Source of the DNA: Saccharothrix sp. NRRL B-16348 | Lineage (GTDB): Bacteria > Actinomycetota > Actinomycetes > Mycobacteriales > Pseudonocardiaceae | Assembly: GCF_001280085.1 (NCBI RefSeq) | Contig: NZ_LGED01000229.1 | Span: forward strand, 1 to 64,000 | Direction of reading: 5' to 3' | Length of the DNA: 64,000 nt | Part shown: one piece after another, positions 46,344 through 48,549 of the stretch | How positions within the stretch are numbered: the stretch's first letter is position 1 | How the letters are laid out: each line of letters starts with the position of its first letter | Made by a program: the position numbers and the translations under genes | The notes under the pieces: generated by a model | Told to the model about the DNA's origin: nothing | Database searches by the model: none | The model's input: the letters and a program-made list of their open reading frames with translations, nothing else

Positions 46344-48549
46344 CACGCAGCTCGAACTGGCGATCACCGGCATGACCTGCGCCTCGTGCGCCTCGCGGAT
46401 CGAGCGCAAGCTGAACAAGCTCGACGGCGTGACCGCGACGGTGAACTACGCGACCGAGAAGGCGCGCGTCACCTTCCCGGACGACGTCGACCCGCGGGTC
46501 CTGGTCGAGCAGGTCGAGGCCGCCGGCTACCAGGCCGCGCTGCCCGTCGTCGAGACCGACCAGCCCGAAGCCCCGGTGGACGAGGACCCGACCGCCGCGC
46601 TGCGGCAGCGGCTGGTCGTGTCCACGGTGCTGGCGGTGCCCGTGGTCCTGCTGGCGATGGTGCCGGCGTTGCAGTTCACCTACTGGCAGTGGATCTCGCT
46701 GACGTTGGCGGCGCCGGTGCTGGTGTGGGGCGCGTGGCCGTTCCACCGGGCGGCGTGGACGAACCTGCGGCACGGCGCGGCCACCATGGACACGCTGATC
46801 TCGATGGGCACGATCGCGTCGTTCGCGTGGTCGTTGTACGCGCTGCTGTTCGGCACGGCGGGTGTGGCGGGGATGACGCACCCGTTCGAGCTGACCGTGC
46901 AGCGCACCGACGGTGCGGGCGCGATCTACCTCGAAGTGGCCGCGGGCGTCACGGTGTACATCCTGGCGGGCCGTTACTTCGAGGTCCGGTCGAAGCGGCG
47001 GGCCGGTGCGGCGTTGCGGGCGTTGCTCGAACTCGGCGCCAAGGACGTGGCCGTGCTGCGTGGCCAAGACGGGGGGTACGGGCGCGAGGTCCGCGTCCCG
47101 ATCGGCGAGCTGGCCGTGGGCGACCGGTTCGTGGTGCGGCCCGGGGAGAAGATCGCCACCGACGGTGTGGTGGCCGACGGCAGTTCGGCGGTCGACGCGA
47201 GCATGCTGACCGGCGAGTCGGTGCCGGTCGAGGTCGGCCCCGGTGACGCGGTGGTCGGCGCGACCGTCAACGCGGGCGGTCGGCTCGTGGTGCGGGCGAC
47301 GCGGGTCGGGGCGGACACCCAGCTGGCGCAGATGGCCAGGCTGGTCGAGGACGCGCAGAACGGCAAGGCGCAGGCGCAACGGCTGGCCGACCGGATCTCG
47401 GCGATCTTCGTGCCGATCGTGATCGCGTTGTCGGTCGGGACGCTGGCGTTCTGGCTCGGCGCGGGCGGTGGCGTGTCGGCGGCGTTCACGGCGGCGGTCG
47501 CGGTGCTGATCATCGCGTGCCCGTGCGCCCTGGGGCTGGCCACGCCGACCGCGCTGCTGGTCGGCACCGGGCGCGGCGCGCAGCTCGGCATCCTGATCAA
47601 GGGACCGGAGGTGCTGGAGTCGACCCGGCGGGTGGACACGGTGGTGCTGGACAAGACCGGCACCGTCACCAGCGGGCGGATGAGCCTGGTCTCCGTGCAC
47701 ACGGCGGCCGGCGTCGAGGAGGACGAGGTGCTGCGGCTGGCCGGGGCACTGGAGGACGCCTCCGAGCACCCGATCGCCAAGGCCGTCGCGGTCGGTGCGG
47801 CCGAGCGGGTCGGTGAGCTGCCCGGGGTCGAGGGTTTCCAGAACCTCGAAGGGCTGGGCGTGCAGGGCGTGGTCGACGGGCACGCGCTGATCGTCGGGCG
47901 CGAGCGCTTGCTGGCCGAGTGGGGCGTGCACCTGGACGGTCCGCTGGCCGAGGCGAAGCGTGCGGCGGAGGCCAAGGGTCGCACGGCGGTCCTGGTCGCG
48001 TGGGACGGCGAGGCGCGGGCGGTGCTGGTCGTGGCCGACACCGTGAAGCCGACGTCCGCCGAGGCGATCCGGCAGTTGCGCGACCTCGGCCTGACGCCGG
48101 TGCTGCTGACCGGCGACAACGAGGCCGCCGCGCGTGCCGTGGCCGCCGAGGTCGGGATCACCGAGGTCGTCGCCGAGGTGCTGCCGAAGGACAAGGTCGA
48201 CGTGATCGCCCGGCTCCAGGGCGAGGGCAAGGTCGTGGCGATGGTGGGTGACGGCGTGAACGACGCCGCCGCGCTCGCCAAGGCCGACCTGGGCCTGGCG
48301 ATGGGCACCGGCACCGACGCGGCGATCGAGGCAGGCGACCTGACGCTCGTGCGGGGCGACCTGCGTGCGGCGGCGGACGCGATCCGGCTGTCCCGGCGGA
48401 TGATCGCGGGTGCGGCGATGGCGTTCTCGTCGGTCTTCGTGGTGTCGAACAGCCTGCGGTTGCGCGGCTTCCGCAGCACGGCGGGCGCGCAGGCGCGGCC
48501 GACCCGTTCGACGGAGTCCACGCAGGACAAGGTGCCCGCCTCCGTCTGA
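46336..48549 (+). CDS. copA: Copper P-type ATPase CopA with an internal membrane-helix deletion
   Basis: Cu(I) exporter of 737 residues. It has an N-terminal HMA domain (GMTCASC, Cys15/Cys18), actuator TGES, the membrane metal motif CPC (Cys395, Cys397), and phosphorylation DKTGT (Asp439). HP in the N-domain and GDGVND are also present. The end is abnormal. After AIRLSRR the sequence jumps directly to [11 protein letters not shown] at residue 689. Normal CopA has about 30 residues here, containing the penultimate helix and its Tyr-Asn copper ligands. The join is in frame, so no stop results, but transport would be expected to fail or topology to flip. The upstream overlap fixes the ATG start. 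It is followed by a terminator. Confidence 0.9.

Follow-up and report, generated by a model that had tools for sequence, protein, structure and literature searches.

The window analysed here is a stretch of 64,000 nucleotides, positions 1 to 64,000 of the forward strand of contig NZ_LGED01000229.1 in the assembly GCF_001280085.1 of Saccharothrix sp. NRRL B-16348. It contains a cop cluster in which genes for a csoR/ricR-type repressor, a copZ-type chaperone and a 317-aa protein precede copA, the gene for a P1B-1 copper-exporting ATPase (Table 1). The DNA of the cluster is colinear at five loci of relatives (L125, L126, L127, L130 and L131), and that of the 317-aa protein region in several relatives; the protein itself found no match when Pfam and NCBIfam were searched. 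An Rfam scan of positions 43000-52000 reached no family threshold. A plasmid search with 44600-48560 matched 35 records, the 20 listed being CopA relatives at 74-80%; in a tally over all 35, the best place stood at 99% or above in two and at 95-99% in one. Just 3' of copA lies a direct repeat, GAACGTAGGACACGCGCG, in three copies with 22-base spacing (48626, 48648 and 48670; window 48626-48687). In one relative (L099), the final residues of CopA are RESYVQNA, apparently an in-frame reading of a related repeat.

Table 1 Features of the cop cluster and of the break in copA (window coordinates).
Feature	Position	Strand	Remarks
csoR/ricR-type copper repressor gene	44614..45012	+	ORF as listed; conserved start may be internal
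copZ-type copper chaperone gene	45093..45299	+	
Gene for 317-aa cop-cluster protein	45390..46343	+	Between copZ and copA; no Pfam/NCBIfam match
copA, P1B-1 copper-exporting ATPase gene	46336..48549	+	737 aa as assembled, without M5 segment
99 bases identical to the copy on contig C199	48301..48399	+	After last difference (48300) up to junction; equals contig-end overlap
Junction	48399..48400	+	30 codons (90 bases) absent, present in all complete relatives examined
Right-hand identical stretch, 11 bases	48400..48410	+	Next difference from C199 at 48411

The missing segment of CopA

CopA proteins of the P1B-1 type are recognized by a CPC motif in M4, by TGES, DKTGT, SEHP and GDGVND, and by a CxxC in the N-terminal HMA domain. 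All of these were located in the window CopA, as were the HMA, E1-E2_ATPase and Hydrolase domains and the Met...Ser motif of M6 (MAFSS, residue 695). Family-level matches were likewise clear, with 459.6 bits for TIGR01511 (cut-off 397) and 521.6 bits for TIGR01525 (cut-off 346.25); the CopA queries started at 46333 and carried one additional leading codon. Both the motif check and the alignments failed to find an M5 helix with its Tyr-Asn pair in CopA as assembled. Judged by its sequence, the assembled text is not a complete P1B-1 member; the underlying copA gene most likely is. Values of dN/dS for the window copA against seven orthologues, those of ten chosen that yielded a coding sequence on the plus strand, were 0.11-0.23, similar to those of an intact orthologue (G004) against the other six (0.12-0.20), so copA looks constrained as usual.

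At the junction, the copA text passes from CTGTCCCGGCGG directly to ATGATCGCGGGT with the frame kept. The original prediction had described a clean, in-frame passage from LSRR straight into MIAGAAM, with the loss of about 30 residues holding the penultimate membrane helix and its Tyr-Asn ligands, and this description holds in every part. The break lies at 48399/48400, although its position relative to relatives is ambiguous by two bases (GA) because the segment missing here starts with A and ends with G in those genomes. Aligning CopA with full-length proteins, a check proposed with the prediction, gave a 30-residue gap at the junction against seven genus orthologues, together with two single-residue gaps elsewhere. 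Alignment with these orthologues and with the structure 3rfu shows that the absent residues include helix M5 and, within it, the Tyr-Asn pair that serves as copper ligands. Across two genome searches, the spacing from the LSRR-type to the MIAG-type motif was exactly 30 residues in 108 of 109 relatives' loci (79/80 and 29/29). In the remaining locus (L064), the contig ends inside M5 with Tyr-Asn still visible, and M5 with Tyr-Asn is accordingly present in all 109. Measured from DLTL to MIAGAAM, the distance was 47 residues in 66 scored loci of 80, compared with 17 in the window CopA.

CopA of Legionella pneumophila (PDB 3rfu and relatives) matches window query residues 89-695 (E 1.9e-142), a match that covers the M4 CPC, DKTGT and GDGVND; the window M6 has a separate match, at chain residues 709-732. 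By this alignment, what is missing from the assembled protein corresponds to the region from about chain residue 674 to 710, the site of Tyr688 and Asn689 of M5. The part of PMC4179477 drawn on here proposes these as two of six membrane residues that bind copper. CopA orthologues from the genus (L092-L101, with the protein entries P0004 of Saccharothrix luteola and P0005 of S. deserti) share 88-93% identity with the window CopA up to the gap, but, unlike it, L092-L101 all have the 30-residue M5 segment. In another genome (G010, contig C2, 250166-252168), a CopA homologue at 68-69% identity is covered by two matches that overlap near residues 370-379 and lie in different frames, likely a frameshift in the gene or in the assembly.

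Could a CopA without M5 be a working protein? One option of the original prediction was a natural change of metal preference or a CopA acting like a chaperone; on such a reading, selection would have retained the shortened protein. The intact frame and the low dN/dS agree with this idea, but an intact gene predicts a low dN/dS equally well, and the loss of M5 would take two of the six membrane copper ligands proposed in that part of PMC4179477. We also searched residues 660-738 against ~5.8 billion proteins, scoring 7,999 candidates; among the 120 proteins listed, the short junction occurred solely in the window's own, and M5 was present in all 119 others. Relatives sharing the shortened end, which together with intact copper transport would have spoken against the original prediction, were absent both among the 109 loci and among these 119 listed proteins. 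We consider a naturally shortened, functional CopA scarcely credible.

A second copA piece and a 99-base footprint

The same assembly holds a second 3' piece of copA on contig C199, which aligns with the window from 48144 onward. Both copies break after the identical bases CGGCGG, and they differ in what follows. C199 retains 26 bases more than the window, so that its gap relative to relatives is 64 bases and shifts the frame, compared with 90 in the window. These extra 26 bases match the final part of the M5 segment and are unchanged in two of seven relatives tested. Compared with a relative (G019), the C199 remnant joins roughly the first 12 codons of a second csoR to copA at about residue 588 of the latter; in G019 itself, csp is oriented divergently to a stretch with csoR and copZ, which stops at a contig end. 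Two other relatives (G002 and G014) have two complete copA copies, and the longest exact matches between their fetched copA regions are 39 and 46 bases.

Two copies with one break could reflect a real event. A deletion could have arisen in one cop operon, and gene conversion could have carried it into the second; a later loss of 26 more bases from the same point in one copy would have restored the frame in the window. The resulting pump would lack M5 and is predicted to be probably unable to transport copper. The two copies share patchy identity blocks, as conversion would give, and neither the window nor the C199 copA stretch contains any N, the sequence being contiguous in both. C199 also lacks sequence from csoR' into copA, a loss that may be real. 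A search for another match to the left side of that junction found none, which leaves the idea that it is the same assembly artefact without support, and no 99-base match explains it. If it is a real deletion in the second operon, as it may be, this gene family has undergone some genuine decay, a point that we counted against a pure artefact reading.

On C199, the csoR'-copA remnant has a divergent neighbour (L011 3290-4297; L139 ~8790-9735), a Cys-rich, copper-storage-like gene. Its product reads like a Cys-rich four-helix copper-storage protein, and the stretch ahead of the csoR' codons looks like a CsoR-type operator.

The distance from the last difference between the two copies to the break provides a further observation: in both, the break lies exactly 99 bases past that difference. 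We compared this length with overlaps among 72 ends of 44 of the genome's own contigs (42 usable of 60 fetched, plus C199 and C228). Thirteen exact end overlaps of at least 20 bases were found, nine of which measured exactly 99 bases; the remaining four were 33, 36, 52 and 81 bases. Within the 743,388 own bases compared (about 7% of 10.9 million), the longest exact repeat was also 99 bases. Exact matches of at least 50 bases that touched the end of a piece were 99 long in 10 of 20 cases, and a single internal match out of 59 had that length, namely the copA stretch. A constant exact overlap between contig ends is the pattern left by de Bruijn assembly and implies the k-mer length used. We infer that the overlaps and repeats here come from a de Bruijn assembler run at k = 99. 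A lone coincidence at 99 bases could be chance; combined with the shared break and the unequal gaps, it makes a biological reading unlikely. The M5 codon pattern had no match in the genome's own assembly, a search that is weak for short contigs since 18 of the 60 fetched were all N.

A probable assembly join error across two near-identical copies

We conclude, with a probability of about 0.93, that the 90-base gap in copA is an assembly join error across two near-identical copA copies. The argument rests on the break, which ends at a 99-base match between the copies, the same length as the contig overlaps. In the organism itself, the two copies would share ~200 identical bases spanning M5 (99 to the left, 90 from M5 and 11 to the right). 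A graph of 99-mers would keep this shared stretch once, as a single edge, and both left-hand edges would end in the same 99-mer, producing the common left break. A join over the collapsed edge with an under-estimated distance could then remove the starts of the right-hand edges, ~88 bases for the window and ~62 for C199, and so yield the gaps of 90 and 64 bases. Trimming of the next edge without a check on the join is a feature of SPAdes-type path writing. An in-frame gap in the window is a 1-in-3 chance under this reading and is a point against it. We rejected a join through a false overlap: by eye and in comparison with relatives, the two sides of the window junction have no more than two bases in common, and those of the C199 junction none.

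Assembly collapse had been the third option of the original prediction, and it is the one that the C199 copy and the match between the 99-base stretch and the contig overlap support best. The headline of that prediction, a CopA truly short of a helix and therefore changed in function or topology, finds no support: a second copA has the same break base but a different gap, and the distance to the break is the 99 bases of the contig overlap. In the part of PMC5508607 used here, NucDiff defines a collapsed-repeat class in which, as in our case, a repeated stretch is absent from the assembly. Unlike that class as given there, part of the stretch is lost here at both places, in unequal lengths and with one shared edge. 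Another technical error, such as reads dropping out across M5 or a deletion in the library, in place of a collapsed repeat, would also remove the segment without leaving N; it predicts neither the common break base nor its 99-base distance from the last difference, and we give it a negligible chance.

These observations bear equally on a deletion shared by gene conversion. Such a history needs two successive deletions at the identical left base, with at most two bases shared at the junction, and it needs the shared stretch to coincide with the assembly's contig overlap of 99 bases. It must also accommodate normal constraint on the rest of copA and a genome in which none of the ATPases found is a copper exporter of the CPC type. 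None of seven other P-type ATPases found in the genome carries CPC before DKTGT in a motif check; two have SPC, and we class the remaining five as KdpB, calcium or other types. A CopA-like match at E≤1e-100 was present in 57 of 60 genomes searched, that of the strain included. As to the second CopA that the original prediction suggested looking for, the genome showed the truncated 3' piece on C199 and no CPC among the seven other ATPases found. We regard a real deletion with conversion as improbable. Its extension, in which the two operons exchanged the M5 deletion, the strain lacks a conventional CopA and a seven-helix CopA was selected as a copper-binding non-pump, strikes us as more improbable still.

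If the gap is a join error, the living organism would have an ordinary eight-helix CopA, encoded by an intact gene, with the transport cycle typical of P1B-1 pumps. Cu(I) would arrive from CopZ and the HMA domain, the sites in M4-M6 (CPC, Tyr-Asn and Met/Ser) would bind it, and phosphorylation at DKTGT would drive export. We therefore expect an ordinary pump, and the gap is most likely without importance as biology. Unless reads prove the contrary, the protein is best regarded as a normal P1B-1 CopA whose record is damaged. The case illustrates how a short-read assembly over two near-identical gene copies can mimic a clean, in-frame loss of a helix. Even where reads are missing, such errors can be recognized if the stretch between the last distinguishing base and the break is measured and set against the length of the contig-end overlaps. 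Shortened products of this kind can enter protein collections unnoticed, as exemplified by the window CopA, which stands in the collection as an ordinary 737-aa entry (P0001).
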